Below are positions 5,510 to 28,100 of a stretch of DNA of 29,376 nucleotides, in pieces. The stretch is from IMG/VR virus record IMGVR_UViG_3300035664_000065, positions 1 through 29,376 of that record; one strand, given 5' to 3'. Below the pieces are notes generated by a model. It worked only from the letters and a program-made list of their open reading frames with translations. It had not been told where the DNA came from and searched no databases. The position numbers and the translations under genes were made by a program. This stretch comes from a virus. Position 1 is the first letter of the stretch. Each line of letters starts with the position of its first letter.

Positions 5510-6568
5510 TCAGAGCAGTTGAATTGCTTCAGTTTCTCCTTCGATTTGAGGAGCAGCCCACAATTCAAGAGGGAGTTCATCAAGAGACACAGTAGGAGGA
5601 GTAATCATACCCCCAAACTGAGCGTGAAGCTTCTCACAGTAGAAGTTGATAGGTCCGAGAAACACTTCTTCCATAACCTTGACAATTTCGTCGCGTTCTG
5701 CTTCGATGTCAGATTCGTGCTCGGCATAACTGTTACAAATTACGCGAACCGATTCACCCTTTCGCCAGGCAGATATCGCCCACTTGAGAATGTCTCCAGC
5801 ATAACGATAAGTAAACTGAGAGTCAAGAATCTTGTGTCGGGTTGCAACTCCATCAATAGAGGAGTAATTGTTAGAACCAAACATAGGATTTACTTTAATC
5901 CATTGCTTGATTTCTTCTTTAGTTGTGTTAAAAACTTTGGTTGATTTAGTCTTTCTATCTAGAATAGCGTTTTCAATTGCCGTGATGACAGGTTTGTGAG
6001 CATACCGCGAAGTAATGCCACAGATGTCTAGCAATTCCCTGACAACATCACGAGTCAGAGGAAGACTCTCATCTTCGATAACCAACTTCACAACGTTGAT
6101 GAAGTCATTCTGAACTGCATTTACCGTACCATCAATTGCATTGGCATACAAACCCATCAAACTTAAAGCAGAATTGTGAGAAAGATTGTCGTAAAGTTCG
6201 TTACCGGTATCCTTTCGCACATACAACGCAACAGGAACGGAGTGATAGTTGTTCTCCTTCACTGCCTTCAGAAGGTGACGGTGGTCGAACAAACTCTCAT
6301 TGCCATCGTCATCTACAAAGACACTAAATGGCCACTGTTTGACTGCCCATCCTTCTTTTGTTGATGCGATCAGAACATCCAGATTGCCTTTGGCAAGTTC
6401 AGTCTTGCGGGGATAGTTGGCAGTTGTGGGAACGATTTTGGAAGTTAATCGTGGAACGAAGTTATCGTCAATTAACTGTAGTAGTGGGTATTGAGGTCCG
6501 TCTTCAGCAGTAACCTCAACACTATGAACAGGAAAAACCTGTCCTGAGTGAACTTTAATTTTTTTCAT
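5510..6568 (-). CDS. 352-residue phage protein, possible ParB/sulfiredoxin-like N-terminal domain
   Basis: A soluble protein. Around residues 90-115 it has a segment FDHRHLLKAVKENNYHSVPV that resembles the D-G-x-H-R-L-x-A ... I-P-V core of the ParB N-terminal/sulfiredoxin-like fold, in which the HR pair sits in the active or nucleotide site. The rest is helical with no motif I recognise. If the resemblance is right, it could be a nucleotide-dependent DNA-binding or nuclease-like protein. It is a single-gene unit: a consensus promoter upstream and a terminator downstream. Its base composition is visibly less AT-rich than the oxygenase genes upstream. Function is uncertain. Confidence 0.65.
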   Translation of the reverse strand: MKKIKVHSGQVFPVHSVEVTAEDGPQYPLLQLIDDNFVPRLTSKIVPTTANYPRKTELAKGNLDVLIASTKEGWAVKQWPFSVFVDDDGNESLFDHRHLLKAVKENNYHSVPVALYVRKDTGNELYDNLSHNSALSLMGLYANAIDGTVNAVQNDFINVVKLVIEDESLPLTRDVVRELLDICGITSRYAHKPVITAIENAILDRKTKSTKVFNTTKEEIKQWIKVNPMFGSNNYSSIDGVATRHKILDSQFTYRYAGDILKWAISAWRKGESVRVICNSYAEHESDIEAERDEIVKVMEEVFLGPINFYCEKLHAQFGGMITPPTVSLDELPLELWAAPQIEGETEAIQLL

Positions 6569-6617
6569 TTAGTTTAATGCAATGTGTATTGCCCATCAAT
6601 TGATTGAGCATATGAGT

Positions 6618-6646
6618 ATCATATACCAAAAAGAAGTCTTTGTCAA
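6618..6646 (-). promoter_or_regulatory. sigma70 consensus promoter (TTGACA-N17-TATGAT)
   Basis: -35 TTGACA at 6641-6646, 17-base spacer, -10 TATGAT at 6618-6623 (5/6). It starts right after the intergenic repeat at the end of the oxygenase operon and points at the 352-residue gene, giving a leader of roughly 40 bases. Confidence 0.8.
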
Positions 6647-6647
6647 T

Positions 6648-6662
6648 CCCCTTGTGCCAGTT
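6648..6662 (-). repeat. Intergenic repeat AACTGGCACAAGGGG, copy 2 of 3
   Basis: Identical 15-mer just after the stop of the last oxygenase gene. Unlike the other copies it lacks the pairing CCCCTT arm, so no terminator stem forms; a consensus promoter follows at once. Confidence 0.75.
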
Positions 6663-6663
6663 C

Positions 6664-7149
6664 TCAATCTGGACACTCTACACCATATTTTATGGCAACT
6701 GAAAAGCGGTGTCGATCATAAAAAGATGTTGCTTTATGGAGTAAACTTGCATTAAAAGCAACTAGGCGATTTGGAATAGGTAGAATTCCATAAAGTCTTT
6801 CATCAATAAAAAATTGTGTTTCTCCACCATCATTCAAGTCCCAAGTTTCATTCGGATAATATAGAAATGTAACTTCTTCGCTACCCCCATCAGTATGGAA
6901 ATAAGGATTTTCTGATGGAGCAAAACAATTTATGTACATTCTATACAATTTGAGATTTGTAACTAATCCCTTAAGTTTAGTTTCAAATAGATTATAAATT
7001 GGTTCAGTTTCTGAAATATTATGTATCATTCCAGTAGGTGGATGATTCTCATCGTCTGCTTCACCATAAATGTACACAGAAGATTTACAATATTCTAGGA
7101 CAAAATTAAATTCTTCTTGTGATAGAAAATTATCGGTTACTTCAATCAT
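6664..7149 (-). CDS. 2OG-Fe(II) oxygenase, pair A copy 2
   Basis: 161 residues. Fe ligands HxD (H85, D87, in PYFHTDGG) and a distal H138, followed ten residues later by R148, fit the double-stranded beta-helix dioxygenases that use 2-oxoglutarate and O2; R148 would bind the co-substrate. The core between (FLYYPNETWDLNDGGETQFF) is typical of prolyl-4-hydroxylase-like members, which act on proteins. It is a clear paralog of the next gene upstream (shared FLYYPNETWDL, DGGET, PIPNRL, RHRFS and AIKYG blocks), lacking about 35 residues in its first half. The ATG at 7149 makes ATGA with the upstream stop; a GTG at 7155 is less likely. Substrate unknown. Confidence 0.85.
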   Translation of the reverse strand: MIEVTDNFLSQEEFNFVLEYCKSSVYIYGEADDENHPPTGMIHNISETEPIYNLFETKLKGLVTNLKLYRMYINCFAPSENPYFHTDGGSEEVTFLYYPNETWDLNDGGETQFFIDERLYGILPIPNRLVAFNASLLHKATSFYDRHRFSVAIKYGVECPD

Positions 7150-7736
7150 ATGCACCCCTCATAATGAATGCCGTACTTTATGGCAATTGAAAAACGATGC
7201 CGATTACGAAAGGGTGTTGCCGTATGTTCTAAATTAGCATCAAATGAAATTAAACGATTGGGGATTGGTGGGATACCATAAAATCCCCCATCAATAAAAA
7301 ATTTGGTTTCTCCACCATCATCTAAGTCCCAAGTTTCATTTGGATAATATAGAAATGTAGTTCCAACCTCCCCATCGGTATGAAAATAAGACTTTTCTAA
7401 TGCGGCAAAACAATTGATGTAAATTCTTGTAATATCTTTTGATTTGTACTGTGGAAATCGAGTTTCTATTGAACTTGAAAATAGATCAAACATTTTTTTT
7501 TGATTTATAATTTTCGTAGGGTCTCCTCCAATTAAATGAGATTCTTCTGGTAATGGATTATCTTCGGTGTAGTGATAAACTTCATGAACTAATCCAGTAC
7601 AGTATTTAAAATTAGTCACAGAATTAGAGTCTGAACCTCCACCTTCACCATAAAAATAAGATGCTTTGATGCAATAGTCTAATATAAAATTATATTCTTC
7701 TTTGGTAAAAAAATTATCATAAACATCAATACTCAT
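7146..7736 (-). CDS. 2OG-Fe(II) oxygenase, pair A copy 1
   Basis: 196 residues. The HTD motif (H119, D121), distal H171 and R181 give a complete active site; the ligand spacing (52 residues from first to second His) almost equals that of its downstream paralog (53). It differs from that paralog by an extra Gly/Ser-rich and polar stretch (about residues 32-80), which probably lines the substrate entrance. Prolyl-4-hydroxylase-like by overall pattern, so a protein substrate (phage fibre or host protein) is a reasonable guess. ATGA overlaps join it to both neighbours. Confidence 0.87.
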   Translation of the reverse strand: MSIDVYDNFFTKEEYNFILDYCIKASYFYGEGGGSDSNSVTNFKYCTGLVHEVYHYTEDNPLPEESHLIGGDPTKIINQKKMFDLFSSSIETRFPQYKSKDITRIYINCFAALEKSYFHTDGEVGTTFLYYPNETWDLDDGGETKFFIDGGFYGIPPIPNRLISFDANLEHTATPFRNRHRFSIAIKYGIHYEGCI

Positions 7737-8389
7737 ATTGATTCATCTCCGTACTGCAAAACCTTAAGATTCATAGCAATTGTTATACGAGGATAATCTT
7801 CAGTATAAACACAAGGATTAACTGAATGTTTAAGATATGATGGAAACATTATGAAATCTCCTTCTTCAATTTCCGGTTCATATTTACTATTATATTGATT
7901 CCTACCAAACTCAAGTGAAAAGCATCTTAATTGCTCTAGAGGGTCTCTAAAAATAGGAGGTTTATGTCTGGATTTATCAAATGAAAGAAAATGAATACAC
8001 GAAAAATGAACCGTATTAAAAGGTCCACTTAGATGATCGTGCTCTTCTTGATATTCTCCATCAGTATAGCAATTGTACCATATCTCATCAATCATAATTT
8101 GATATGTTGAGTCAAAAAAACTATCAAGACATTTTGCGTATTTTTTTTCTAAAATTGATTGATATGTATTGTCTTCTCCAAAAAAGATTTCGTTTCCGGA
8201 TTTTTCTCCAGAGAAAGATGTCTTAAGTTTATGAGTAAACCATCCTTCAGGAATCGGAAGCTCCTCAGAATCTTTGAGAATCTTTGGAACTAACATTTCT
8301 TTTATTTCATCATTATTTTCAACTTTACTGTGAAAAAATGATATTGGAAAAATAGGAATCCTACTTTGCTTATCAAAATTTTTATCCAT
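7733..8389 (-). CDS. 2OG-Fe(II) oxygenase-like protein, pair B copy 2
   Basis: 218 residues. The C-terminal half has the marks of the small phage 2OG-FeII oxygenases: YTDGEYQEEHDHLSGPF with H117/H119, then GDFIMFPSYLKHSVNPC with distal H188 and R201 in PRITIAMNL. The first ligand site reads H-D-H rather than a clean HxD, so the carboxylate ligand may be shifted or replaced, as appears common in this subfamily. Related in layout to the next gene upstream. GGAG lies about nine bases before the ATG. The stop joins the following oxygenase by ATGA. Confidence 0.82.
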   Translation of the reverse strand: MDKNFDKQSRIPIFPISFFHSKVENNDEIKEMLVPKILKDSEELPIPEGWFTHKLKTSFSGEKSGNEIFFGEDNTYQSILEKKYAKCLDSFFDSTYQIMIDEIWYNCYTDGEYQEEHDHLSGPFNTVHFSCIHFLSFDKSRHKPPIFRDPLEQLRCFSLEFGRNQYNSKYEPEIEEGDFIMFPSYLKHSVNPCVYTEDYPRITIAMNLKVLQYGDESI

Positions 8390-9074
8390 TCACACAATCT
8401 CCAATTTTTACTTTAATATTTCCAGAAATACTTATTCTATAGTCGTCAGAAGTATAAAATGGATAAACACTATGATTTAACCAGGATGGAAACATTACCA
8501 TAGTTCCCTCCCAAGTTTTATCTATAAACAAAGGCAAAGTCTCCATTTCCCCATCTGGAGAGATGAACTGAAATTCAAATAAAGAATTTAAGGATTCATT
8601 TGAATTTTTACAATTTTTATGATTTAACTCATTTGTTAAATCATAAGGAATACGCATCCAAATTACAAATGAATAATCTCCTGCGTGAGAATGTCTTGGA
8701 TTAAATTCGTATTTTTTTTGTAAGTTAATCCAAAGACTTTCAAGTTCATAATTAACTTCCTTCTCAAAAAAATCACTATCGTGGTCAAATTTTTTGACAG
8801 GATTTAATTGCTCATCCTCTATTACTTGAAAATAACCTTTAGCAACCTCAATGGAAAAATCCTCAATTAAATGTGAGGATTTAGTGGAAAGTTTATATTC
8901 TTCTTCAATATTTCCCGCCAAGTATTCATTCCATTTTTTAAGATTAGATTTATTCTCCAAAATAAAATCTACATCTTCATTTATTTTTTCAAGTATATCC
9001 TCAGGAACTTTTGTCCTAACATAGTATAAGGATGTGATTGGTTCGGCATATATTTTTAATTGCTCTTGGTTCAT
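8382..9074 (-). CDS. 2OG-Fe(II) oxygenase-like protein, pair B copy 1
   Basis: 230 residues. A helical N-terminal half (about residues 1-115) precedes the jelly-roll part: FNPRHSHAGDYSFVIWMRIP with H128/H130, then GTMVMFPSWLNHSVYPFYTS with distal H201, and R213 in DYRISISGN. This is the pattern of the 2OG-FeII oxygenases often seen in T4-like cyanophages. First gene of the four-gene oxygenase operon, driven by an extended -10 promoter just upstream; overlaps the next gene by 8 bases. Very AT-rich compared with the adjacent helicase gene. Confidence 0.82.
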   Translation of the reverse strand: MNQEQLKIYAEPITSLYYVRTKVPEDILEKINEDVDFILENKSNLKKWNEYLAGNIEEEYKLSTKSSHLIEDFSIEVAKGYFQVIEDEQLNPVKKFDHDSDFFEKEVNYELESLWINLQKKYEFNPRHSHAGDYSFVIWMRIPYDLTNELNHKNCKNSNESLNSLFEFQFISPDGEMETLPLFIDKTWEGTMVMFPSWLNHSVYPFYTSDDYRISISGNIKVKIGDCVNG

Positions 9075-9096
9075 ATCTAATTAACTTCATCATCTA

Positions 9097-9105
9097 ATTA
9101 TACCA
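9097..9105 (-). promoter_or_regulatory. Extended -10 promoter (TGGTATAAT) of the oxygenase operon
   Basis: Perfect TATAAT (9097-9102) with TG one base upstream, lying between the stop of the helicase gene and the ATG at 9074. No -35 match is seen at 16-18 bases. Confidence 0.6.
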
Positions 9106-9107
9106 CA

Positions 9108-10343
9108 TCAGCGGGTGATGGTGCTGATTGCCACGTCACCCTTCTGGAAGATAATGTCCACCACGTTCTGGACCTTCTGTGCGGTGCTCGTAGATGCCTT
9201 GTCAAAGGTCGGGCAGACCACCAGACCATAGGATTTGGTGTAGGAGTCCAGAGCACCCGCCTGAAGGGCACCAGAGCGGATCCCAGCGGCATCCTGGGGG
9301 TGCAGGCGCAGCGTCCTACCGACCGTTTGACCGATGCCCACGATGTCCATAGAACGCATAAACACAACCGCTTCCAGAGCAGAGATGTTGATGCCTTCTG
9401 CCAGAATGCTGTGATGAAGAACCACAAACTTCTTGTCGGCATCCTTACCCCACTCATTCAGAGTGTCAAAGAACACCTCACGGTTGACTTTCTGACCGTC
9501 AATAAATGCACCGTGCTTGGAAGTAATGTGCATCACGGAATAACCCTCTTCTGCCAGTTGTTCGGCAAAGTCAGATTCGGACAGAAGTTGAATGATATTC
9601 TTGGTAGTCTTGGCACAAATCAGAATCTTATCAACAGGATTATCCTGAATAATCTCAAGCAGATACTCACAGTCCCGTTGACCCACATCCTCACCTTTGA
9701 TGGAAAGACGAAGTTGCTTGGCAATCACCTTAGGAGGAATGATATAACCGTTCTGCACCAGTTGAGGAGCAGGAACCTTGGCAATAATCTGACCGTAAAC
9801 ATCAACGTCATTCATACCTGCCTTACCCACAACGGTAGAATATTTGGGAGTTGCGGTGAAGAAATAGCAACGCTTTGCCTCCGCAGAAAAATGCTCTACG
9901 GCAGGAAAGAAGTGACGTTGAATGCTATTGTGTGCCTCGTCAAAGTAGATCGTATCCACATCCACATCTGCCTTGGCAAGTTGACCCAAAGAGTTGTAGG
10001 TGGTGAAAATCAGTTTGTTCTGAGTGCTGCTATTGACAAACCAATTGATTTTTGAAGGATTGGTAGAAACAAAGTGATGAGTCTCACCACTATGAACGTG
10101 CATCACGGCAGCATTCGTGATAAACTCAAGATACTCAGAAGAAAGTTGTTCGGCAAGCAGAATGCGAGGAGCAACCACAACAATCACTTTGTTGGTGGCA
10201 TTCTCAAACTGCTTCGAAGCATCAAAGATACCAACGTTGGTTTTACCACCGCCGGTAGGGAACACACAAATACCTTTAGAATGCTGCTGGAGAGCATCAA
10301 GGGCATCTTGCTGGTGAGGACGAAGTTGAATCACGAATCTCAT
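9108..10343 (-). CDS. SF2 DNA/RNA helicase (DEAH-type, UvsW-like)
   Basis: 411 residues with the two RecA-like lobes of superfamily 2. Lobe 1: LRPHQQDAL (7-15), Walker A PTGGGKT (29-35), VAPRILLAEQ (58-67), DEAH (135-138), TAT (163-165). Lobe 2: SILAEGINI (312-320, motif V) and GQTVGRTLR (338-346, motif VI with arginine fingers). All motifs are intact, so an ATP-driven translocase is expected. It is smaller than T4 UvsW (about 500 residues) and might instead be a type III restriction-helicase relative; roles in branch migration, replication restart or defence evasion are inference. More GC-rich than its neighbours. It has its own extended -10 promoter and lies downstream of a terminator. Confidence 0.9.
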   Translation of the reverse strand: MRFVIQLRPHQQDALDALQQHSKGICVFPTGGGKTNVGIFDASKQFENATNKVIVVVAPRILLAEQLSSEYLEFITNAAVMHVHSGETHHFVSTNPSKINWFVNSSTQNKLIFTTYNSLGQLAKADVDVDTIYFDEAHNSIQRHFFPAVEHFSAEAKRCYFFTATPKYSTVVGKAGMNDVDVYGQIIAKVPAPQLVQNGYIIPPKVIAKQLRLSIKGEDVGQRDCEYLLEIIQDNPVDKILICAKTTKNIIQLLSESDFAEQLAEEGYSVMHITSKHGAFIDGQKVNREVFFDTLNEWGKDADKKFVVLHHSILAEGINISALEAVVFMRSMDIVGIGQTVGRTLRLHPQDAAGIRSGALQAGALDSYTKSYGLVVCPTFDKASTSTAQKVQNVVDIIFQKGDVAISTITR

Positions 10344-10477: not shown

Positions 10478-12499
10478 CTATGGAACTAAAACTGTACTAA
10501 GAACTCCTGCATTACTTACAATTAATCTGTACTTAGTTCCATTAGCAGATGTGAGAATTAAACCAGTAGAAGTGTTTATACCAACAGAAACATCGCCACT
10601 AATCACTCTTGCAGGTCCGTTTACCAGTAATCTTGTTCCTAAGGGATTATCTACGTTTGTGGTTCCAATACCGACTGTACCAAAAACTGTGTCTACTTCT
10701 GAGGCATCAATACCAAGACCAAATCTAATTGAAGTTGTTCCAATTCCTATTCCAGATGAATTAATAACTACGGCATCTTCTGGATTGATTAAATAATCAC
10801 CACCAATATGTAAAGGTTGTAATGGATTTGTATTTCCAATACCAATTCTTTGGTCAAAAAATCCATGATTAGTAACATTAATATCAAAGAAAGTTGATAT
10901 TCCCGAAGTTGCATTTACATTTTCATCACCTCCACCCATGATTTGATTTCCATTAGCATCAAGAAGTCCAGATTGACCTTCTAAAATATAAAGTGTTCTA
11001 ACACTCGTACTGGTTGCTGCTCCAGTTGCAACAATATTTTGAGATACATTTAAAGAAGAAACACTTACATTTCCAGAAACTTGAAGTTTACTTGTAGGAT
11101 TCGTAACACCAATTCCAAGATTTCCTCCATAAGTTAGCGTCATTAATGGACTACTGATATTAGAAGAATCTGGTCCATACAACCAATTAAAATTACCAGT
11201 TCCTACTCCAGCAGCACCATAATGTAAATAGTAATTCAAATTTCCAGTATCATAATTAATAATATCTAAAGACTTAGTTGTACTGGATGGATATAGACCA
11301 GAAGTATTTCCAAACCTTAGAGCACCATTACTTCCGGTAAGAGTTATGTCTCTACCTACTGCAACAATTGCTTCTGCAGTATCACTCGTAACTTGTAATC
11401 TAGATGCAGAACTTCTTCTAATGTGAATATCAGAAGAAGGAGAGTTTGTACCTACTCCAATTGATTCTGCATAAAGTCTGGTGGAAACTGTTGAGATTCC
11501 AATTGAAGAAGTTTGAGATGCAATATGTGTAATACTTACTCTTGCATCAGAAGTTAAATCTCTTGCCGTACTAGCAATACCAACTACATTACCAGTAAGT
11601 TGCCCAACAAATCTAGATGCTGTTACAATACCAGCAGAAGCAGTAATACCTCCAGAATTAATTGTAACTCCACTACCAACAACAATACTTGTTGCGGTTG
11701 CGCTTCCTAGTACAGGAGTTACAAGAGTTGGTGAGGTCGCAAATACATTCGCACCACTACCAGTTTCATCAGATAGTGCCGCTGCTAATTGTGATGATGT
11801 AAAAGAACCTAATGATGTTGTGGTATTATTGGATGTAATCGCACCCGTTAAATTTGGTATATTGGTTGTTGTGGAGGCAGTACCAGTTAGGTTTCCAACA
11901 AAACTAGTTGCCGTAACAATACCACCACTAATTGTGACACCAGTTCCTACTTTAAGTGTGGAGAAAGTAGAAATACCATTTGAATTTACATTTCCTGTTA
12001 GGTTTCCAACAAAACTAGGTGCAGTTAGTATTCCAGTTGTGTTTACATTTCCAGTAAGTGCATCAATAGATAATCCATTTCCAGTAATAGGATCTTGACC
12101 CACCTGTAAAGAATAATTTGGAATATCTGTTCCTATACCTACTTTTGATGTAGTGGAAATAGTTCCTGCGCTAATATACCATCCATCAACCGCAATTGCA
12201 TAAATGCTAGTCAATCCAACGGCACTTCCATAAAATGCCGTGGCACTTACAATTCCCGTAGAGGCATTAAGTGTAATTCCTGAACCAACCCTTACATTAC
12301 TATAAAAAGTAGAAATTCCTGTGATTGTCAGATTCGTTGCCGTAACTAATCCAGTAACCTTTGCGGTTCCGTGAACATCCAAAAACTCTCTAGGAATTGA
12401 TGTTCCAATTCCAACCAGACCATTTGCATTTACAATAAAGTTGTCATTATCAACCTGAACTCCATTTCTAAAGTTAAATGACTTGTTATAATTTGCCAT
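10478..12499 (-). CDS. Virion fibre protein with GIGTxxP repeats
   Basis: 673 residues, low in Cys and rich in Thr, Ser, Gly and Asn. About seven copies of a beta-structured repeat with the core G-I-G-T-x-x-P ... L-x-V-x-G are visible (for example near residues 30, 118, 345, 465, 555), alternating with TGNVxGxAST-type strands (FVGNLTGN appears twice). This is the pattern of trimeric tail-fibre shafts in marine T4-like phages. The C-terminus (GTKYRLIVSNAGVL) is not an S74 chaperone, so trimer formation must depend on another mechanism or partner. Last gene of the late unit, with a late promoter upstream and a terminator downstream. Attachment position on the virion is unknown. Confidence 0.85.
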   Translation of the reverse strand: MANYNKSFNFRNGVQVDNDNFIVNANGLVGIGTSIPREFLDVHGTAKVTGLVTATNLTITGISTFYSNVRVGSGITLNASTGIVSATAFYGSAVGLTSIYAIAVDGWYISAGTISTTSKVGIGTDIPNYSLQVGQDPITGNGLSIDALTGNVNTTGILTAPSFVGNLTGNVNSNGISTFSTLKVGTGVTISGGIVTATSFVGNLTGTASTTTNIPNLTGAITSNNTTTSLGSFTSSQLAAALSDETGSGANVFATSPTLVTPVLGSATATSIVVGSGVTINSGGITASAGIVTASRFVGQLTGNVVGIASTARDLTSDARVSITHIASQTSSIGISTVSTRLYAESIGVGTNSPSSDIHIRRSSASRLQVTSDTAEAIVAVGRDITLTGSNGALRFGNTSGLYPSSTTKSLDIINYDTGNLNYYLHYGAAGVGTGNFNWLYGPDSSNISSPLMTLTYGGNLGIGVTNPTSKLQVSGNVSVSSLNVSQNIVATGAATSTSVRTLYILEGQSGLLDANGNQIMGGGDENVNATSGISTFFDINVTNHGFFDQRIGIGNTNPLQPLHIGGDYLINPEDAVVINSSGIGIGTTSIRFGLGIDASEVDTVFGTVGIGTTNVDNPLGTRLLVNGPARVISGDVSVGINTSTGLILTSANGTKYRLIVSNAGVLSTVLVP

Positions 12500-12535: not shown

Positions 12536-13510
12536 TTAAGTAGGGTTAGTGTTATAAATTATTGGTCCAACTATGGATCCCCCGACATTTGATATAGATG
12601 TTCCGCTTCCATCATTGTAGATAATAATTGCTCTTCCTTGAGATCCTCCCACATTTCCACTTCCATTACCACCATTGCCGCCGTTAGATCCACCAGCACC
12701 GGCAAAATTTCCGGCACCACCGCCAGCTCCTCCGGGTGTAAGTCCACCACCTCCACCAGGGCTTCCATTATTACTTGCGCCGCCGCCAGCAGCGCCGCCT
12801 GCACCACCGGGGAATCCAGATCCTCCCCCACCTCCAGCACCCGCTGTACGTACTTCTGTTCTACGTCTTGTAATAGACCCTGTTCTTCTTGATTGATTGG
12901 TCCAAGAACCACCACCACCACCACCTCCACCAGATTGAATGTAACCTCTATTTGTAACAACAGTTGGATATTGAATTCCTAAGGCACTACTTCCATTACC
13001 ACCTGGGGTTGAATTAATAAGGCTACTATCTGCTCCTTTTCCCCCATTTCCTCCAGAACCATAAAGTTGCCCACTTGGACCAATTTCAAGTTCTAATTGC
13101 GTATTCCCTTCCCATCCTCCAGTTGCCAGTGCGACATTATTAATTGAACCTAAATCAGAACCAATAATACTATTTACATTAATAATAACTCTTGTATTTG
13201 CACTACTTGGTGGTCTAGTTTTAAATCCACCAATCACGGTTACATTTTGATTATTATATCTAACACGAGCTGTCTGTCTTGTAGAAAAGTTTGGAATTGA
13301 ATGAAGATCGACGACAACATTTAATTTTTTGGAATAAAAATTACTAAATCCAATTTGACCTGATTGTGGAATTCCAGTATCTAAAGGAAGGTTTGATAAT
13401 GTTCCAACAGTTTGACTAACTCGGTAAGCTCCTAGATTTTTTCCTGTAGGTATACCAAACTCATTCGAAATTTGAGAGAAGGAAATAGGTCCTGATGCCT
13501 GTAGTGTCAT
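12536..13510 (-). CDS. Polyglycine-rich virion protein, probable receptor-binding adhesin
   Basis: 324 residues in three parts. Residues 1-60 are a module shared by marine phage virion proteins (ISFSQISNEFG, NLGAYR, SNFYSK). Residues 65-150 are a beta-rich domain. Residues 150-292 are dominated by glycine, with runs of nine and five Gly, separated by short polar or basic loops (WTNQSRRTGSITRRRTEVRT). In T-even phages of the S16 type, gp38 packs such segments as polyglycine-II helices whose loops bind the receptor. The gene starts two bases after the stop of a giant S74 fibre, as gp38 follows gp37, with GGAG about ten bases before the ATG. Adhesin role is inferred from composition and position, not demonstrated. 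Confidence 0.75.
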   Translation of the reverse strand: MTLQASGPISFSQISNEFGIPTGKNLGAYRVSQTVGTLSNLPLDTGIPQSGQIGFSNFYSKKLNVVVDLHSIPNFSTRQTARVRYNNQNVTVIGGFKTRPPSSANTRVIINVNSIIGSDLGSINNVALATGGWEGNTQLELEIGPSGQLYGSGGNGGKGADSSLINSTPGGNGSSALGIQYPTVVTNRGYIQSGGGGGGGGSWTNQSRRTGSITRRRTEVRTAGAGGGGGSGFPGGAGGAAGGGASNNGSPGGGGGLTPGGAGGGAGNFAGAGGSNGGNGGNGSGNVGGSQGRAIIIYNDGSGTSISNVGGSIVGPIIYNTNPT

Positions 13511-13512
13511 CT

Positions 13513-16500
13513 TTACTTAACTCCTTTAAGTTCGTTGATTTCTGCTTTGAGTTCCTTAATTGCCTCAATCAATAGAGGAACAAGTTTTTCATAACGAACT
13601 GCAAGATAACCATTATCTCTAGTGGTTACTGCTTCTGGAAGTACTTCTAGGATTTCTTGTGCGACAACACCAACATCGGAACCTTCTTTTTCCGACTTCT
13701 CATTCCAATCAAATGTATTGCCACTGATTGAAAGTACCTTATCAAGAGCATTAGGAATTGGAGTAATATTATCTTTGAGTCTTTGGTCTGAAGTAAAGAA
13801 TGCCGTGATGTCTCCAGTTACACTGAGATTGCCACTTGGATCAAGAATCATTCTTACAGTGAAATTATTTGCCCCATCATGAGTATACCATCTATGTGTT
13901 GTTCCATCTTGTTGAAATGCACATCCAGGAGTTCCATCAGAAACCCAATTAGTACCATTCCACCATGTATTATTTGCTAAATGCGTATAATTTGACCCAT
14001 CGCCAGAGGATAGATAAGCATTTCCAACTCTTATACGAAGATTATTTGAAACATCCACATTTGAATTAAGTGTAGTAGTTCCAGAAACAGTAAGATTATC
14101 ATCAATCGTTGTAGTACCACCAGCAGAATCAATTGTTAAGTCTCCCGTAGAAGTATCAATCTCATTATCGCCAGCAATTCCAATACGAATATTGTCAATT
14201 GTTGCTCCAGCATTGGCATCTAGAAGACCTGATAATGTTGCTGAACTAAGAGTTGTTGCACCAGTAACTCCCAAAGTACCATTGACGCTCAGATCATCAT
14301 CAATTGTTGTGGTTCCACCAGCAGAATCAATTGTTAAGTTTCCTGTGGAAGTATCAATTTCATTATCACCAGCAACACCTATTCTTACGTTATCAATTGT
14401 TGCACCGCCATTGGCGTCTAGAAGACCGGTGAGAGTAGAAGTTCCACCAACATTTAAATTCTTGACAATACCAACACCACCACTTACAACGAGTGCTCCG
14501 TTTGTGGTAGTTGTGGATTGAGTTGTGTCACTAACCTTTAATTGTGACTTAGCATTTACTGCAGCAGTAAGTTTAACTTCTTTATTGAATGTAACCGGAC
14601 CATCAAACTGAGAAAGAATTGTACCAGAGTTTCCACCCTCAACAACAAGTCTTTCCTTAATTGTAACCTCATCAAATACCGCACTTAATCTAGATGGGTC
14701 TTCACCGGTAATCGTTGGAATTGGATTATCATAAGTAACTTCTTCACCAGTTGCGGATGATGTCTTACGATTACCTACAAATAAGTCTCCATTATTGTTC
14801 ATACCAGTATAAACAACAATACCACCAGACCTTTCTTGAGATTGTACCAAGAACTCTTCTCTTTCGGTTAAGGTTACGGTCTGAACCTGAGGCAATCCGG
14901 TTGAGTAGTTTCCGGGACCATAACCAAGATATTCAAAAGTATGACCTGATGCCCTAACGATAGAAGGTCTTCTAAACTCAATTGAGATTGGATTAATCTT
15001 TCTAATAAGTGAACCATTATCATGAGCGGTTTGTCTTGTGGCAAGAGATCCACGAATCACCGTAATAGAACTTGAAGATAGAGTGCTACTTGCAACTCTC
15101 ATAATCTCTTCATCAATCTGAATATAAGAACCAAGTGGGAATCTCTTGGTAATTGCGTCTGCTCCTACAGGGCTTGAAACTGCAATTAGAGTATCAGTAG
15201 TACTAATTCCGGCACTGGCAACAAGAGTTTCCTTATCAAATAAAGGAACACTTCGTACTCCTAGATTCTCCGCAGAAGAATCAGAACTTGCATCATTTGC
15301 CGACAGTCCGTGCTTCAGAATATATCCATTATTGGAACTATTGATAGAAGGAGTAAGTGATGTAAATGAAGTAGTACTAATTCTATCCTTTACAATATAA
15401 TCACCTAGATTATTATTTGAAGAATCAATAACTCTAAATCTATTACCGGCAACTAGTCCGTGAGGTGCATAGCAATTGAAGGTTCTTATACCAACGCTGC
15501 TAGAATAAGTGGTTGTCTGAATCTGTACAGAAGGTCCAACAACAAAGGCATATTGAGATGTGGTAATAACAGGGTCACCCGTAGTTCTGGCAATAGAAAT
15601 CTGATTGTCTGCAGAAACTGCCGTAATACGATGATAAGTATCGGAAGTTGTACCGGCACCAGTAAATTGAACCACATTACCAATTGCCGTTGTAATTCCT
15701 GATGTGGCAACATTAAATCTGGCAGAACCATTACCATTACCTATTACAGAAGAATCAAAATATAAACCGTTAGCTCCAGAACCGGCAGAATAACCAGATC
15801 CAGAAGAAACAATATCGGCAGAAGCAACCGCTCCACTGATATGAACAACAACATTTGCGGTTGCTCCCCTCCAAGTTCCAGTCTGAGAACCGTTTAGAAG
15901 TTTGACATTTTGATATGTTCCTGGAGTATAAGTGGCACCACCATCTAAAGTGCTACAGGTTACAATACCAGCAAGACCGTGCTCTCTGGCAAAGGTAATC
16001 GTTGCACTTGATGTAGAACTAGAAACAGAGGAAACATCAAGACCAACATTTAAACTTGTAAGTAAGGCATCACTAGACTCTTTGGTAATGCTCTTCTTAA
16101 GGTCATTTGTTACAACATCTCCAATCGGAGACCTTTTAGCAAATGTCTTGGCAGATGTTGGAGTATCATTAATATTATCTCTATCCAACTGAGGATACAA
16201 GTCAACAACATTTTGACTATACTTGATATTTGTAAACTCGGTTGGAACTGCCTTATCCGCACTTAAGACATAGAGGTGATAAACCCCATCCTGAACATTT
16301 TCAATATATGGTGTGATTACCTCATTTCTGTAAATATAAAGATTTGAACGTAAATCATTTCTTTCAAATCTTGGAAGCGAAGTTGTTCTGACAGTTGTAT
16401 TATTTGTAAATGTAGTTCCCGGAGTTCTTGTTGTTAAATATGTAAATGTCATATCATCAACAACAGATTCAACCGTAAAGGTTCCATTATAACCAAGGTC

Positions 16501-19134
16501 ATCTTCACCGGTAGGATTTTCATCACCGTCCGTTACATTTTTGATGATAATACTATCACCATCATTAAGATTGTGTGGAAGTTCCGATATAATCGTTACT
16601 GTATTAGAAGCTCGTGTACACTTGGCAATAAAACTTAGATTTCTATTATAATCATAGTCCGTTGTAGTAAGACTAGAGAGACTAGAATCAGCATTATCAC
16701 GATATCCGGTTGAACTAGATTCCTGAATGACAAATCCATTCTCGGGATTTTTGGCATTCTCTAGTTGTTTTGGAATTACAACTCTAATCTTATAGATTTT
16801 TTCATCTAGACTTCTGGTGTCGGCAATTCTCTTAATATAAGAAGGTTCGGTTCTTTCGGTTAATCCCGCAACACCTAATGAAGTGAATGCAGTATAGATG
16901 GAACTACCTGCATTTGTGGTAATATACCACTGATTATTTGCAGTATCAAACTGTACTGGATGACCAACATCACCGGCAATTTTATCAGATACTCTACTTA
17001 GAATTCTTAGATTAGTTCCTAAATAAACATTAATTTCATTACCATTTATAGCTGCCGATTGTGAAGAAGCAAGTTTAATTTCAGTAGAAGACTCACGAAT
17101 TGCATAATAAACTGTATTTTCTACAATATTTTCTGGCAGGTCTCCATCATCACTCAGAATAATAACTTTTTCACCTGTTTGGATATTGTGAGTACCAATC
17201 GTAAAGATATTAGATGATGGTCCAGAAGTTACTGTGTGTTCCTTTACAGAACTTGTAACACCATCGGACATTAGAATATTTGCCGAATATTCCGTTCCGT
17301 TTGCGGTAAAATATAATTTATCACTTACCTTTGCACCAACTCTATATCCTTGAGTCAGGACTGGTGGTACATCATCTTCGGCAGTAAATCCAAAAAGATA
17401 AAGTCTATTTTGACCTGGATTTATTGTCGTATTCGTAGTTATACCAACATCTAATGAAATCCAATCAACATTTTCTTCTTCTCCCACAATTGCTCTGGGA
17501 GCAATAATTGAGGTAATAAATGCATTATTATCCTTGTCAAATGCTTCTTTTTTAAATCCGGCAGAGGCAAGTGAAATCTGACCAAAGTTTGAGTTGGAGT
17601 TGGTAATGCTTAAGTCACCACCACTTTCGGCATCAAAGTGCTTATTAAATCCAATTGCAAAGACGGAAACAATCTGAATAAAAGCATCATTCGTTGCTTT
17701 TATGTGACTGGATTCCCATCCACTTCTATAAATTGATAATGGTTCTAGGTGATAAACTGTACCAAGTGAGGATGACTGAGAAGATAAAGTTGCACCGGCA
17801 ACTCTGGTTATGGCAATATTATCCGAATAGTTTCTATTTGTTGGATTGTATCTTACAAATGCACGGTCATCTTTTTGTAGAGATACGCCAGTAAATTGTG
17901 CAACAACCATCGAACGGAATCCCGATGCCTTACTACCATCGGCAAGCATTCCGTTCATTCCATAAACAGAACGCAAGGAAATATTAAAGATATAAGGTGA
18001 TGCACCAGAAACCGTATCAGTCTCAATCGTTACTAATCCACTTGATGCATTTCCGGGTGTTGGTAAATTAAGACGGAAATTAGGAAGTAAATATGTAAAG
18101 ACTGTTGGGTCGGTTTCACTAATACTCTGAACCTTTGTAGAGATATTATAGTCTACTGGCGAAACTCCACTAATCTTGATTGGAGTTCCTGCCGTAAGTT
18201 CGTGAGGTATTGTTGTCTTAACCGTAACCTGACTGTTTGGTGTTCCACCACTTCCAGCCTCAATAGTAGAAATCTCAATTGGGTCCGCAGCAAAGGCACC
18301 TACAATCTCCCATTCGGGTCTTTGCTTTTCAAAACCAAGAGGTTTTGCGGGATACTTATCATCAATATCTCTACCGGATGCAAGATTAAATGCATTAGAC
18401 AGTTTTGCATAATACATATCAAGGTCAGTAAGACCTGTATTTTCTAAATTTACACCATCGGCATACTCAAAGCAGGTGAGTTTGTGGTGAGAGAATGTTG
18501 GTACTGATTGATTATTAACTGAGAAGTCTGCTGGGTCAGTATATACCGTACCTTCTGTGCTACCATCAAAAATACAGAACTGCCAGAAATAGCAGGCACC
18601 AGTGATTCTAAAAATTGCCGAGTTTGAAACAGCAGAATCAGTTGGGTTTGGGACATATTTTGGACGAATCTTGGTCTTTCTTAAATCTAGACCAACAATT
18701 GAAGTTCCTCTGGGTACAACAACACCACCATTAACACTATTAAACTTATAAAGAATATTATCTTCTTGTGTGAGGTCAAATACCGAATCAAGAGTGAGTG
18801 ATAATGTACTCGATGCCGCAGATGTTGCACCACTCGGAGATGTTACTGTTGCCGTACCACCAACATTTTTTATAGAAAAACCGGGTCTATTATCAACCGT
18901 ATGTTGACCAGGCATCAAAAGAATCGTGGTCTTCTCTACTTCATCATTACTATTTCCTTTTTGATAAGAAAATCTTGCTGCCTCTAAAAGTGCTCTCTGC
19001 AGCGTTTTGAATGGTTGGGCAAGTGAATTACCCTGATTACTAATACTATCAGTAGAATCAAGGTCACTTGGACTTACATAAAGAATACGACCTTCTGTAT
19101 TCTTTATAAAATTGTCTAATTTATTCAGAGGCAT
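13513..19134 (-). CDS. Giant tail-fibre/virion protein with C-terminal S74 chaperone
   Basis: 1873 residues. The N-terminal 200 residues (RILYVSPSDLDSTDS, FKTLQRALLEAARFSYQKGN, ILLMPGQHTVDNRPGF) match beta-helix openings of marine T4-like virion proteins. The middle carries repeated Ig-like beta modules recognised by H-x-L-x-x-G-D-x-I ... Y-N-G-T-F (near residues 310, 660, 865 and 1285). Near residues 1560-1690 a 66-residue unit is tandemly repeated. The last ~93 residues (TSDQRLKDNITPIPNALDKV ... LAVRYEKLVPLLIEAIKELK) form an S74 intramolecular chaperone, which trimerises the fibre and then self-cleaves before the conserved Ser (S in TSDQR). Likely host-recognition or side fibre. A late promoter CATAAATA lies upstream. 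Confidence 0.9.
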   Translation of the reverse strand: MPLNKLDNFIKNTEGRILYVSPSDLDSTDSISNQGNSLAQPFKTLQRALLEAARFSYQKGNSNDEVEKTTILLMPGQHTVDNRPGFSIKNVGGTATVTSPSGATSAASSTLSLTLDSVFDLTQEDNILYKFNSVNGGVVVPRGTSIVGLDLRKTKIRPKYVPNPTDSAVSNSAIFRITGACYFWQFCIFDGSTEGTVYTDPADFSVNNQSVPTFSHHKLTCFEYADGVNLENTGLTDLDMYYAKLSNAFNLASGRDIDDKYPAKPLGFEKQRPEWEIVGAFAADPIEISTIEAGSGGTPNSQVTVKTTIPHELTAGTPIKISGVSPVDYNISTKVQSISETDPTVFTYLLPNFRLNLPTPGNASSGLVTIETDTVSGASPYIFNISLRSVYGMNGMLADGSKASGFRSMVVAQFTGVSLQKDDRAFVRYNPTNRNYSDNIAITRVAGATLSSQSSSLGTVYHLEPLSIYRSGWESSHIKATNDAFIQIVSVFAIGFNKHFDAESGGDLSITNSNSNFGQISLASAGFKKEAFDKDNNAFITSIIAPRAIVGEEENVDWISLDVGITTNTTINPGQNRLYLFGFTAEDDVPPVLTQGYRVGAKVSDKLYFTANGTEYSANILMSDGVTSSVKEHTVTSGPSSNIFTIGTHNIQTGEKVIILSDDGDLPENIVENTVYYAIRESSTEIKLASSQSAAINGNEINVYLGTNLRILSRVSDKIAGDVGHPVQFDTANNQWYITTNAGSSIYTAFTSLGVAGLTERTEPSYIKRIADTRSLDEKIYKIRVVIPKQLENAKNPENGFVIQESSSTGYRDNADSSLSSLTTTDYDYNRNLSFIAKCTRASNTVTIISELPHNLNDGDSIIIKNVTDGDENPTGEDDLGYNGTFTVESVVDDMTFTYLTTRTPGTTFTNNTTVRTTSLPRFERNDLRSNLYIYRNEVITPYIENVQDGVYHLYVLSADKAVPTEFTNIKYSQNVVDLYPQLDRDNINDTPTSAKTFAKRSPIGDVVTNDLKKSITKESSDALLTSLNVGLDVSSVSSSTSSATITFAREHGLAGIVTCSTLDGGATYTPGTYQNVKLLNGSQTGTWRGATANVVVHISGAVASADIVSSGSGYSAGSGANGLYFDSSVIGNGNGSARFNVATSGITTAIGNVVQFTGAGTTSDTYHRITAVSADNQISIARTTGDPVITTSQYAFVVGPSVQIQTTTYSSSVGIRTFNCYAPHGLVAGNRFRVIDSSNNNLGDYIVKDRISTTSFTSLTPSINSSNNGYILKHGLSANDASSDSSAENLGVRSVPLFDKETLVASAGISTTDTLIAVSSPVGADAITKRFPLGSYIQIDEEIMRVASSTLSSSSITVIRGSLATRQTAHDNGSLIRKINPISIEFRRPSIVRASGHTFEYLGYGPGNYSTGLPQVQTVTLTEREEFLVQSQERSGGIVVYTGMNNNGDLFVGNRKTSSATGEEVTYDNPIPTITGEDPSRLSAVFDEVTIKERLVVEGGNSGTILSQFDGPVTFNKEVKLTAAVNAKSQLKVSDTTQSTTTTNGALVVSGGVGIVKNLNVGGTSTLTGLLDANGGATIDNVRIGVAGDNEIDTSTGNLTIDSAGGTTTIDDDLSVNGTLGVTGATTLSSATLSGLLDANAGATIDNIRIGIAGDNEIDTSTGDLTIDSAGGTTTIDDNLTVSGTTTLNSNVDVSNNLRIRVGNAYLSSGDGSNYTHLANNTWWNGTNWVSDGTPGCAFQQDGTTHRWYTHDGANNFTVRMILDPSGNLSVTGDITAFFTSDQRLKDNITPIPNALDKVLSISGNTFDWNEKSEKEGSDVGVVAQEILEVLPEAVTTRDNGYLAVRYEKLVPLLIEAIKELKAEINELKGVK
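14096..14226 (-). repeat. Tandem-type repeat in the giant fibre, copy B
   Basis: About 130 bases coding for DNEIDTSTGDLTIDSAGGTT and flanks; strongly alike to the copy about 198 bases away, with mostly third-position differences. This implies an old in-frame duplication of a 66-residue shaft unit. Confidence 0.8.
14294..14424 (-). repeat. Tandem-type repeat in the giant fibre, copy A
   Basis: Partner of the copy at 14096-14226, coding for DNEIDTSTGNLTIDSAGGTT; it differs at only a few residues (GG/AG, V/I, N/D). Confidence 0.8.
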
Positions 19135-19166
19135 CGGATTATAACTTCTAAATTATTTCTATGTTT

Positions 19167-19174
19167 TATTTATG
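19167..19174 (-). promoter_or_regulatory. T4-type late promoter (CATAAATA)
   Basis: Minus-strand CATAAATA, 33 bases before the ATG of the giant fibre gene and overlapping the stop codon of the preceding gene; matches NATAAATA. Confidence 0.55.
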
Positions 19175-19481
19175 AAGTCAAATCCTCCTCATCAAAAAGA
19201 TATTCTACATCTGGGGGCATATCCTCTGGGTTTTCTAGGTCCATCATAAACAGGCAAGGATGTGCCTCCTCGTCTATAAGATAGAAAGAGTTTTTATATA
19301 AATCTTCTGGTTCAAATGTACGATATTTGTCCGCTGTTTTACAGAGTTCTTGGTCGTATAAGTGCCCGTCTGGGAGCTCATCAAAGGTAAAGGGAATCTC
19401 GTTGATGAAGTACATTTTCACTATCATACTGCCATTATTGTACCAGCAGTATGCGTGAGTGATTTTGTACTTAAAAGACAT
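19170..19481 (-). CDS. 103-residue acidic phage protein, unknown function
   Basis: A soluble acidic protein (pattern KYKITHAYCWYNNGSMIVKM, then many Asp/Glu: PEDMPPDVEYLFDEEDL). The N-terminal half should form a beta sheet; no enzyme or metal motif can be argued. A late promoter about 20 bases before the ATG says it is made late, with the structural proteins and just before the giant fibre gene, so an assembly or virion-accessory role is possible. Confidence 0.75.
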   Translation of the reverse strand: MSFKYKITHAYCWYNNGSMIVKMYFINEIPFTFDELPDGHLYDQELCKTADKYRTFEPEDLYKNSFYLIDEEAHPCLFMMDLENPEDMPPDVEYLFDEEDLTS

Positions 19482-19501
19482 ATGAATACTTCAATATCTT
19501 A

Positions 19502-19509
19502 TATTTATT
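19502..19509 (-). promoter_or_regulatory. T4-type late promoter (AATAAATA)
   Basis: Minus-strand AATAAATA 20 bases before the ATG at 19481, in the gap after the HNH gene. Confidence 0.6.
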
Positions 19510-19528
19510 TTAAGTAGGAAATGGGAGA

Positions 19529-19867
19529 CTAATTTAGAATAAGTTCAGCAAGATCGTTGTGAAGTAGTCTATGACAAACAGCACATAAAGGAATACATTT
19601 ATCAATCTCTTCTTGTAATTTTTGGTAAGAACCCATTCTCACCATTCCAGATATGCCACCCATATCTTTTGTTGATGGATCGATATGATGTAAATCCATA
19701 GCACAAGGAGGGTATTTAACTTTACAGATGGCACAAGGTTTATCTTTTGCCTCTTCGACCATTTGTTTTCTCTTATTATGAGAAGTTTGTTTTGTTTTTG
19801 GAAGTTTATGTTCAGAGTGCCACTTTTTTTGATATTCTTTTTGCTTTTCTTTGTTTTTATAAGGCAT
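19529..19867 (-). CDS. Free-standing HNH endonuclease
   Basis: 112 residues. A basic N-terminus (about residues 1-40, Lys-rich, DNA-contacting) is followed by C45-x2-C48, the H60-H61 pair in DLHHID, an Asn/Gly-rich loop, C95-x2-C98-H99 and H103. The four Cys would hold a structural zinc and the His residues the catalytic metal, as in HNH nucleases of homing or phage origin. It is compact, as free-standing HNH genes of phages usually are, and lies between tRNA genes and structural genes, a typical insertion spot. A perfect TATAAATA late promoter precedes it. Target site unknown; spreading by cutting phages that lack the gene is the usual model. Confidence 0.88.
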   Translation of the reverse strand: MPYKNKEKQKEYQKKWHSEHKLPKTKQTSHNKRKQMVEEAKDKPCAICKVKYPPCAMDLHHIDPSTKDMGGISGMVRMGSYQKLQEEIDKCIPLCAVCHRLLHNDLAELILN

Positions 19868-25112: not shown

Positions 25113-28100
25113 TTACTTGTTATTATTTATAGTATTCTTCAAAATTTCAACCTCATATTTAAGTTCTTTAATTGCTTCTACAAGAAGTGCAACAAAGTTT
25201 TGGTATGCAACTGATTTAGGATCATCACCAAAAACAAGATGAGGTATAACTTTTTCAACTTCTTGAGCTATAAACCCTAACGAGTGCTGATTATTTTGCT
25301 TATAATCAAATTCTACTCCACGAAGTTCACAAACTTTATTTAATGCACCTTCAATAGTTTTGATATTTTCTTTAATTTTTTCATCGGAGTTTGCTGTAAC
25401 TGTTCCGGCACAAGTAAGATTTCCTGTTGAAGGATTAAAGGTAAGTTTTGTGGATGAAACATTCACAGAATCAACCGAACCAGTAGTTATATCATCAAAT
25501 AAAAGGTATCTGGTGGCATTGGTAGTTGTGTCATCAGAGAGAGTAACATTTGTAGCTCCAGTAGCACCAGTAGCACCTTGAAGTCCTTGAGAACCTTGAA
25601 TTCCTGCGACATAATTGCCCAAGTTAAAATATACGACCTCAATAATATCTCCGGCAGATGCACCAACGGTAAGAACAACTGTAGTACCATTAGTTGCGGT
25701 ATAATCTACAGACTCTTGTAAATGAGAACCATTTAGATATACAAGAATATATTGTGCTCCATACGTAACCGAGAATGTTGTCTGACCAGCAGTAGCAGTA
25801 AATGTTGATTTTGTAATTGTTGATGGAATTGTAGCTATGAGCGCACCGGGAATTCCTTGAGCTCCTTGAAGACCCTGAGTACCCTGAAGTCCTTGAGCAC
25901 CCTGAAGTCCTTGAGTACCCTGTAAACCTTGGGTTCCCTGAGTTGTTCCCGCAAGTCCCTGAAGACCCTGAAAACCTTGAGCACCCTGTAAACCTTGTGT
26001 ACCTTGAGCACCTTGAGTTGTTCCTGCAAGTCCTTGAAGTCCTTGAGTACCTTGACGACCTTGAAGTCCTTGAGTACCTTGAGCACCTTGAGTTGTTCCT
26101 GCAGGTCCCTGAAGACCCTGAAGTCCTTGAGCACCCTGTAGACCTTGAGTACCTTGAGCACCTTGAGTTGTTCCTGCAGGTCCCTGAAGTCCTTGAGTAC
26201 CTTGACGACCTTGAAGTCCTTGAGTACCTTGAGCACCTTGAGTTGTTCCTGCAGGTCCCTGAAGACCCTGAAGACCCTGAAGTCCCTGAGCACCCTGCAA
26301 ACCTTGAGTGCCCTGTGTTGTTCCTGCAAGTCCTTGAAGTCCCTGAAGTCCCTGAGCACCCTGAAGTCCTTGGGTTCCTTGAGTACCTTGAGTTGTTCCC
26401 GCAAGTCCTTGAAGACCCTGAGTACCTTGACGACCCTGAAGTCCTTGAGCACCCTGTAACCCTTGAGTACCCTGAGTTGTTCCTGCAAGTCCTTGAAGTC
26501 CCTGAAGTCCTTGAGTACCCTGAAGACCTTGAGCACCCTGTAAACCTTGAGTACCCTGTAAACCTTGAGTACCTTGTAATCCTTGAGTACCTTGAAGTCC
26601 TTGAGTACCTTGAGCACCTTGAGTTGTTCCTGCAAGTCCCTGAAGTCCCTGAAGACCTTGAGTACCCTGTAAACCTTGAGAACCTTGAGTACCCTGAGTT
26701 GTTCCAGCAAGTCCCTGAAGTCCTTGAAGTCCTTGAGCACCCTGAAGTCCTTGAGTACCCTGAAGTCCTTGAGTACCTTGACGACCTTGAGTACCCTGAA
26801 GACCTTGAGCACCCTGTAAACCTTGAGCACCCTGAAGTCCTTGAGTACCCTGTGTTGTTCCTGCAAGTCCCTGAAGTCCCTGAGTACCTTGGAGACCTTG
26901 AGCACCCTGAAGTCCTTGAGCACCCTGTAACCCTTGAGTACCCTGACGACCTTGAGTACCCTGAAGTCCTTGTGTTCCTTGTAATCCTTGAGTACCCTGA
27001 AGTCCTTGCGTCCCTTGTAATCCTTGTGTTCCCTGAAGACCTTGAGAACCCTGAGAACCACTACCTTGTAATCCTTGTAATCCTTGAGTGCCTTGTAATC
27101 CTTGAGTACCCTGAAGTCCTTGTGTTCCTTGTAATCCTTGAGTACCCTGAAGTCCTTGCGTCCCTTGTAAACCTTGAGTACCTTGACGACCTTGAGTGCC
27201 TTGTAAACCTTGAGTACCCTGAAGTCCTTGAGTACCCTGCAATCCTTGAGTACCTTGACGACCTTGAGTACCCTGTAAACCTTGAGCACCCTGAAGTCCT
27301 TGTGTTCCTTGTATTCCTTGAGTACCCTGAAGTCCCTGAGCACCTTGCAGTCCTTGAATACCAGCGGCAAATGGAGTAACCCAACTAACTCCAATACCAG
27401 TAGAAATTAAAACACTACCAGCAATACCTACATTTCCATAATAATCTTCTACTCTTGAGGTAATACCAATTTTACCACCAACATAAAGATTTTTTTCAAT
27501 ACCAACACCACCTTCCGTAACGATTGAACCAGTATCTTTATTTGTTGATTCTGTGGTACTAGTTACATAAACTACATCATTAATTTGAGTGGTTCCTGCA
27601 TTTGAATCTAGAATAAGATTTCCACTATTTGTACTGACCGTATTTGTATCAAGTTTAATATTATCAAATGTTCCTACACCAGTAACATTTAAATTATTAA
27701 TATTTACCTGAGTATCAAATGTTGAGATTCCACTTACTCTTAAACGATTAAGTGTTGTAAGACCAGTAACACCTAAATCACTCTCAATATTTACTTTTTG
27801 CTTAAATGTTGATAGTCCGGTTACATATAAATCAGTTACATCAATTGCTCCGATAAACTTTGTTGCCGTTACAATACCCGTAAAATAAGCACTTGTTCCG
27901 GTAACAAATCCAACTGTTGTAACTCCAGTAACTTGAAGATTTCTAGTTGTTGTGGTTCCTGTTACTCCAAGAGTTCCAATTGTCGCTATTCCGGTTATAG
28001 TAAGATTATCAATAAAGGTTCCGCCTTTAAAACTAGATATTCCTAAAACATCTAGTAAAACCTTTGGTCTAGTACTTCCAATACCAACACGATTATTAAC

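Follow-up and report, generated by a model that had tools for sequence, protein, structure and literature searches.

An operon of four overlapping oxygenase genes

The window analyzed here is the whole of the IMG/VR virus record IMGVR_UViG_3300035664_000065 (29,376 bases), in which we found a minus-strand operon of four genes coding for 2-oxoglutarate (2OG)-Fe(II)-type oxygenases at positions 6664-9074, downstream of a tail module that includes a glycine-rich, adhesin-like protein. The genes are transcribed in the order D-C-B-A. Gene D (8382-9074, 230 amino acids [aa]) opens the operon and is followed by C (7733-8389, 218 aa), B (7146-7736, 196 aa), and A (6664-7155, 163 aa). As originally predicted, all four are consecutive, intact open reading frames (ORFs), each overlapping the next: D and C share 8 bp, C and B share 4 bp, and the overlap of B and A is either 10 bp, if A begins at a GTG codon, or 4 bp (ATGA), if it begins at an ATG two codons inside. 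The ratios of nonsynonymous to synonymous substitution rates (dN/dS), obtained from a single pairwise comparison with a relative in a 233,886-bp contig, are well below 1 (0.15 for D, 0.21 for C, 0.13 for B, and 0.10 for A), so the four genes are under purifying selection. A promoter belonging to the operon itself had also been proposed and was not supported. The 33-bp gap before D (9075-9107) does contain a TATAAT, but a sigma-70 scan of positions 6400-9500 called no site in it, and the total of 11 sites was lower than the mean of shuffled sequences (13.0).

The division into two subfamilies proposed in the original prediction was confirmed by profile searches. A and B match PF13640 (31.9 and 28.3 bits) and belong to PHROG 274, a family labeled "DNA endonuclease V," while C and D match PF13759 (41.8 and 48.0 bits) and belong to PHROG 81 ("2OG-Fe(II) oxygenase"); all four exceed the curated Pfam cut-off of 27 bits for these families. 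The expected pattern of a His pair and a distal His, with an Arg 10 to 13 residues later, could be read in every protein. The first site reads HTD in A and B, HDH in C, and HSH in D, and the Arg lies 10, 13, and 12 residues beyond the distal His, respectively. An alignment of 25 A/B-type proteins has His, Asp, His, and Arg at these positions in every row, and one of 22 C-type proteins has His-x-His, the distal His, and the Arg in every row. A and B therefore carry the canonical His-x-Asp/Glu...His triad. C and D, with His-x-His, do not, and were thus classed by their membership in PF13759 and not as canonical-triad enzymes; they could be three-His enzymes in their own right or else noncatalytic partners of B and A. 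The description of the four genes as two related pairs stands for family and motif, but not for close kinship: C and D are only 24% identical, and A and B do not pair up in a tree of 25 proteins, where B groups with the partner genes of loci L050, L052, and L054. On this tree, in which support near A is weak, a simple tandem duplication was rejected as the origin of A and B.

Structural models predict the 2OG-oxygenase (double-stranded beta-helix) fold anticipated in the original prediction for B and C, A and D being placed by their family matches. The model of C (predicted local distance difference test, pLDDT, 86.5) is closest to 2rg4 and 3bvc, two uncharacterized bacterial proteins of the PF13759 type (both Z 17.1, with 16% identity; root mean square deviation [rmsd] of 3.0 over 179 residues for 2rg4 and 3.4 over 182 for 3bvc), whose aligned chains also have His-x-His. 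The closest folds to the model of B (pLDDT 85.0) are prolyl hydroxylases of the PHD and P4H types, tied within one unit of Z: PHD2 (3oui; Z 17.8, rmsd 2.4, 24% identity over 157 residues), the Trichoplax PHD (6ey1; Z 17.7), the Pseudomonas putida P4H (4j25; Z 17.3), and a Pseudomonas P4H in complex with EF-Tu (4iw3; Z 17.2). The modeled B thus resembles these enzymes in fold and in its HxD...H...R site, at low sequence identity, a likeness that by itself says nothing about the substrate. Phage 2OG proteins have been described as resembling human EGLN3 (PMC12774648).

The conserved unit is a pair of genes

Using C alone as the query, we recovered 26 IMG/VR loci (not dereplicated), and in all of them an A/B-type 2OG ORF came directly after C, in one case cut by the end of the contig. 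For a larger set, a search with the alignment of C was added (best 80 kept) and all loci were pooled, yielding 64 nonredundant C genes at 95% DNA identity, 63 of which had at least 200 bp downstream and could be used to count partners. An overlapping or adjacent 2OG partner was present in 52 of these 63, and 51 of the partners scored above 100 bits with the A/B profile. Eight of the 11 C genes lacking a partner are in loci that also hold a C-partner pair, the exceptions being L174, L190, and L200. Among the loci found with C alone and in one companion search, a D gene before C was confined to near relatives, and an A gene after B to the closest of them. The conserved unit is therefore the C-B pair and not the quartet; the co-occurrence that had been anticipated does exist in related contigs, but the four-gene order is not what is kept. 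The arrangements found in this slot are D-C-B-A, D-C-B, C-B, HxE-other-C-B, and HxE-other.

The partnerless C-type gene of L190 is followed, 31 bp on, by a gene coding for a 653-aa fiber with a Collagen match and a sub-cut-off match to Gp38 (L190:9980-12622). Two conserved genes of approximately 194 and 133 aa come after the array in seven loci (e.g., L012:4961-5936 and L016:10483-11458); in L016 they belong to PHROG 5172 and PHROG 4376, the latter with a methylase match at the cut-off.

Oxygenase genes are linked to the gene of a glycine-rich, adhesin-like protein

The fiber genes of the window are encoded upstream of the operon, on the same (minus) strand. The protein encoded at 12536-13510 (324 aa) contains 25% Gly, with poly-Gly runs, and matches PHROG 11439 and PHROG 2056 ("tail fiber protein; host specificity," E value 6e-7), although no match to Pfam Gp38 was found at E values up to 1 nor any PDB sequence match at E values up to 0.1. 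Gly-rich motifs in a tail-tip protein are described for the Gp38 adhesins of T2-type phages (PMC12892980), which the Gly-rich window protein may resemble as a putative tail-tip protein. On one side of it lies the gene of a giant fiber protein (13513-19134, 1873 aa), in the same BLAST cluster as the PHROG 529 tail fiber of L016, and on the other a PHROG 3269 tail protein (10478-12499, 673 aa) that belongs to the conserved fiber module. A UvsW-type helicase gene (9108-10343, 411 aa) is located between these fiber genes and the operon.

Such fiber genes are found no more than four genes upstream of C in 15 of the 21 nonredundant C groups with at least 1 kb of upstream sequence (L020 counted twice). 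The set consists of the PHROG 3269 tail protein, a giant fiber of the PHROG 529 type, and a Gly-rich protein whose length is mostly 324-366 aa but 675 aa in one case. Of the 41 C genes with at least 6 kb of upstream sequence, 29 have the adhesin inside that distance; seven of these 29 are second copies, so the count without them is 22 of 34. For 9 of the other 12 C genes, a Gly-rich ORF was present in the locus, a figure for which no background rate was computed. In four loci (L013, L014, L071, and L072), neither uvsW nor any match to the fiber module was found across the whole 13-21 kb of the locus; here a Gly-rich protein of 388-426 aa is encoded directly downstream of the pair, and its N terminus matches the adhesins by profile (26 columns, 92% probability). 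Three large contigs with C-B arrays each have the adhesin once, within approximately 6 kb of the array.

We also searched in the opposite direction, taking only the N terminus of the adhesin as the query and keeping the best 80 of at least 276 candidates, those nearest to the adhesin of the window. This reverse search gave 64 nonredundant loci, and in 57 of them the sequence continued for 3 kb or more downstream of the adhesin. In 35 of these 57 an oxygenase started within 1 kb, and in 43 within 3 kb, but a C gene was found within 3 kb in only 10. The motif H..WH.E is present in the first oxygenase in 31 of the 43; thus, different families occupy the same place. The gene immediately after the adhesin is a 2OG gene in 33 of 57 cases. 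For the remaining non-2OG genes of these loci, counting those no shorter than 150 aa, the figure is 42 of 369 (odds ratio 10.7, Fisher p 5e-14). The test takes in numerous genes from each locus as well as loci that share descent, and the p value, inflated by inherited synteny, overstates their independence. Genes in these scripted comparisons were longest-ORF calls. The 2OG profiles gave no hits in a reversed-sequence control but miss some members (e.g., ORF241 and ORF242 of cyanophage S-SCSM1), so the 2OG counts for adhesins and for other genes alike are minimum values. The oxygenase genes are, then, statistically linked to the adhesin gene, with changing sets of oxygenases in the same slot. 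To our knowledge, no oxygenase operon beside gp38 is known. In the parts of the open-licence literature covered by our search, we found neither a link of phage 2OG oxygenases to tail adhesins nor the C-B pair, and we consider both to be new, while the presence of multiple 2OG genes in cyanophages was already known. The adhesin family of the window was found in only 2 of 50,697 phage records, both of them single-cell contigs, compared with at least 276 relatives in viral contigs.

Oxygenase runs in named cyanophages

Matches to Photo_RC (psbA/psbD type) are present in the 233,886-bp contig of the relative mentioned above and in 8 of the 11 large contigs searched; the virus of the window, therefore, most likely infects cyanobacteria. 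In contig G001, to which locus L011 belongs, the Photo_RC match is split in two pieces (10645-11693), one of them with two in-frame TAGs, and may represent either an intron or two genes.

Among cultured cyanophages, S-SCSM1 (MK867354.2) has four consecutive genes annotated as 2OG oxygenases (ORF240-243), with overlaps of 1 to 8 bp, between a helicase and a tail fiber gene, much like the window. The enzymes, however, are others: ORF243 and D share 26% identity across 177 residues, ORF241 and ORF242 are 2OG proteins by the annotation of the authors and were not detected by the profiles used here, and the adhesin family of the window was not detected in this genome. A run of four is also found in ACG-2014h (042-045), with one member annotated as "ferrochelatase," and in S-MbCM6 (019-022), if the gene at 19075-19809 (PF13640, 27.6 bits) is counted. 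Both genomes resemble the window in having contiguous 2OG genes that include the PHROG 274 type annotated as "DNA endonuclease V," but their member set and order differ, and the adhesin family was not detected in them either. In P-SSM7, three 2OG genes adjoin tail fiber genes. Taken together, seven named genomes contain 21 adjacent 2OG pairs, compared with 4.5 expected under random gene order (none of 20,000 permutations reached 21), and five of the seven have a run of three or more, compared with 0.2 expected. Considered singly, Syn1 is no different from chance (p 0.32), the run length in S-CAM9 is likewise within expectation (p 0.49), and the number of pairs in P-SSM7 is of borderline significance (p 0.07).

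A four-enzyme run is thus neither unique nor exceptional in number among cyanophages, and the view of the operon as unusual was not supported in this respect. Many 2OG oxygenase genes are known from cyanophages, 24 being reported for S-SCSM1, and the functions of such genes "have not been specifically investigated" (PMC9602691); counts of nine and ten are given for S-SZBM1 and S-CREM1, respectively. One viral contig has seven 2OG-like ORFs in a row (L021:3473 onward), downstream of a protein with 31% Gly.

Possible substrates and roles

We tentatively favor an explanation in which the four enzymes act on the tail-tip adhesin or a fiber of the phage itself, as the linkage of their genes suggests. 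The most likely substrate would be the glycine-rich adhesin (12536-13510), possibly along with the neighboring fiber proteins. The oxygenases would be expressed together with the fibers, and C and B would work on a single substrate, either joined in a heteromer or one after the other, hydroxylating side chains of the adhesin and so affecting its folding, stability, or receptor binding; D and A would contribute extra specificities. Were this true, these phages would enzymatically modify their own receptor-binding protein, and the linkage provides a concrete and directly testable candidate substrate for cyanophage 2OG oxygenases. It is possible, if somewhat doubtful, that this reflects a strategy of marine cyanophages in which exchangeable oxygenase sets, some built around an adjoining His-x-His and His-x-Asp pair, hydroxylate Gly-rich tail-tip adhesins, host recognition being tuned by chemistry besides sequence. 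Of the 20 genes mutated in host-adaptation experiments with cyanophage S-TIM4, 14 code for proteins of the particle, mostly tail fiber and baseplate proteins where a function is ascribed; one of the six other genes is a 2OG gene, which the authors interpret as a nutrient response (PMC6224464).

A fiber as the substrate was already part of the original prediction, and a tail substrate remains the leading idea, but the collagen-like fiber singled out there (25113-28883, minus strand, 1256 aa) is disfavored, and it is the adhesin gene that tracks the oxygenases. The 171 GXY triplets of this fiber contain four Pro and no Lys, so that Pro or Lys hydroxylases would find little in it to act on, and on this composition Pro/Lys hydroxylation of the collagen-like fiber was dropped as the leading idea. 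Gln, present at 144 of 171 Y positions, could still be a target. According to a paper on E. coli prophage collagens, the collagens of bacteria and viruses have no hydroxyproline and comparatively high contents of Ala, Gln, and Thr (PMC3368898).

Several observations weigh against modification of the adhesin. The linkage behind it is all genomic, and part of it may be inherited synteny, as noted above. No 2OG gene was detected within 3 kb in 14 of the 57 adhesin loci, including the lineage of the window, in which the first oxygenase is approximately 3.5 kb from the adhesin; in the window and in its relative L011, uvsW sits between the fiber genes and D. Position alone cannot separate fiber genes from uvsW as the neighbor that matters, because uvsW is also within four genes of C in 14 of 23 C groups; the four loci without uvsW and the reverse search partly tell the two apart. 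Relatives of D adjoin regA in Syn19, Syn2, and S-RIM2. There is no oxygenase directly downstream of the adhesin in AG-345-D19 and AG-345-L05, the two named records that have it, and the adhesin family of the window is absent from the seven named cyanophages rich in 2OG genes and from three of the six large contigs searched. Finally, Pro, Lys, and Asn contents showed no clear difference between adhesins with and without a 2OG neighbor (35 compared with 10, with no significance test), and a relative of A in AG-345-F15 is found within a run of ORFs that, judged by eye, resemble sugar-nucleotide and glycosyltransferase genes.

This last context would fit the tailoring of glycans or small molecules, with sugars or lipids being hydroxylated for surface decoration, and a review of jumbo phages proposes 2OG enzymes in polysaccharide or metabolite clusters (PMC7824862). 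We consider it improbable for the window, where the operon is adjoined by fiber genes and a helicase and where the PHD-like fold predicted for B suggests peptides. Less improbable, but still unlikely, is that the interval between the fiber genes and uvsW is simply a variable cargo site in which oxygenases with unrelated and diverse substrates hitchhike. The variable content of the slot and the frequent proximity of uvsW are consistent with such a hot spot, and so is the low G+C of the cassette (28.5-33.5%, with flanks of 42-49%, in 600-base windows), a trait that is not unique, because other parts of the contig span 31 to 51%. The synonymous divergence (dS) of the cassette (0.28-0.39) is also below that of uvsW (0.74) and the adhesin (0.62), as recent exchange predicts, although that of the PHROG 3269 gene is 0.38 as well. 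A mere cargo site is harder to reconcile with an oxygenase being so much commoner after the adhesin than after other genes and with the pair keeping a Gly-rich protein in the four loci where uvsW was not found.

The presence of the pair in those same four loci also argues against a role in DNA repair or in the drawdown of 2-oxoglutarate, which, together with nitrogen metabolism, are among the published proposals for cyanophage 2OG genes (PMC9146016, PMC3037559). The operon does adjoin uvsW in the window, but no AlkB-type family appeared among the Pfam matches of the four proteins, and the closest folds are those of PF13759 structures for C and of PHD and P4H for B, so that we regard this role as very unlikely. 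Hydroxylation of a host factor by the PHD-like members, in the manner suggested by the Pseudomonas P4H solved with EF-Tu, seems to us a rather weak candidate: the model of B matches that structure and PHD2 equally well, but the fold gives no substrate, and gene linkage points to tail genes instead. The least probable of all is that C and D have no catalytic activity and serve B and A only as scaffolds in the assembly of a complex. Their His-x-His in place of His-x-Asp and the position of C directly before B could be read in this way, but the invariant three-His pattern of the C type and the same His-x-His in 3bvc and 2rg4 suggest a working metal site in these enzymes.

Annotation of oxygenases as DNA endonuclease V and ferrochelatase

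The annotation of PHROG 274 deserves correction. Ten proteins from cyanophage arrays, six of them annotated as DNA endonuclease V, all match PF13640 or PF13759 with E values of 0.0022 or lower, six of the ten above the curated Pfam cut-off. Neither these ten proteins nor A and B match an endonuclease V (Pyr_excise) family at E values up to 1. The combination of 2OG Pfam matches with no endonuclease match rules out an endonuclease V identity; the label is, on these profile matches, wrong for the proteins tested, which are oxygenases by family. The genes relabeled here are L003:6001-6489, L009:5009-6005, L006:6001-6516, L007:7980-8570, and L008:5389-5967, with T4-GC numbers 100 and 166 where given. 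Similarly, the "ferrochelatase" of ACG-2014h (L009:4458-5006) is an oxygenase of the PF13640 family (68.6 bits). In pelagiphages, 2OG genes are described as co-located, though not adjacent, with "ferrochelatases" (PMC9599517), and these partners may carry the same mislabel.

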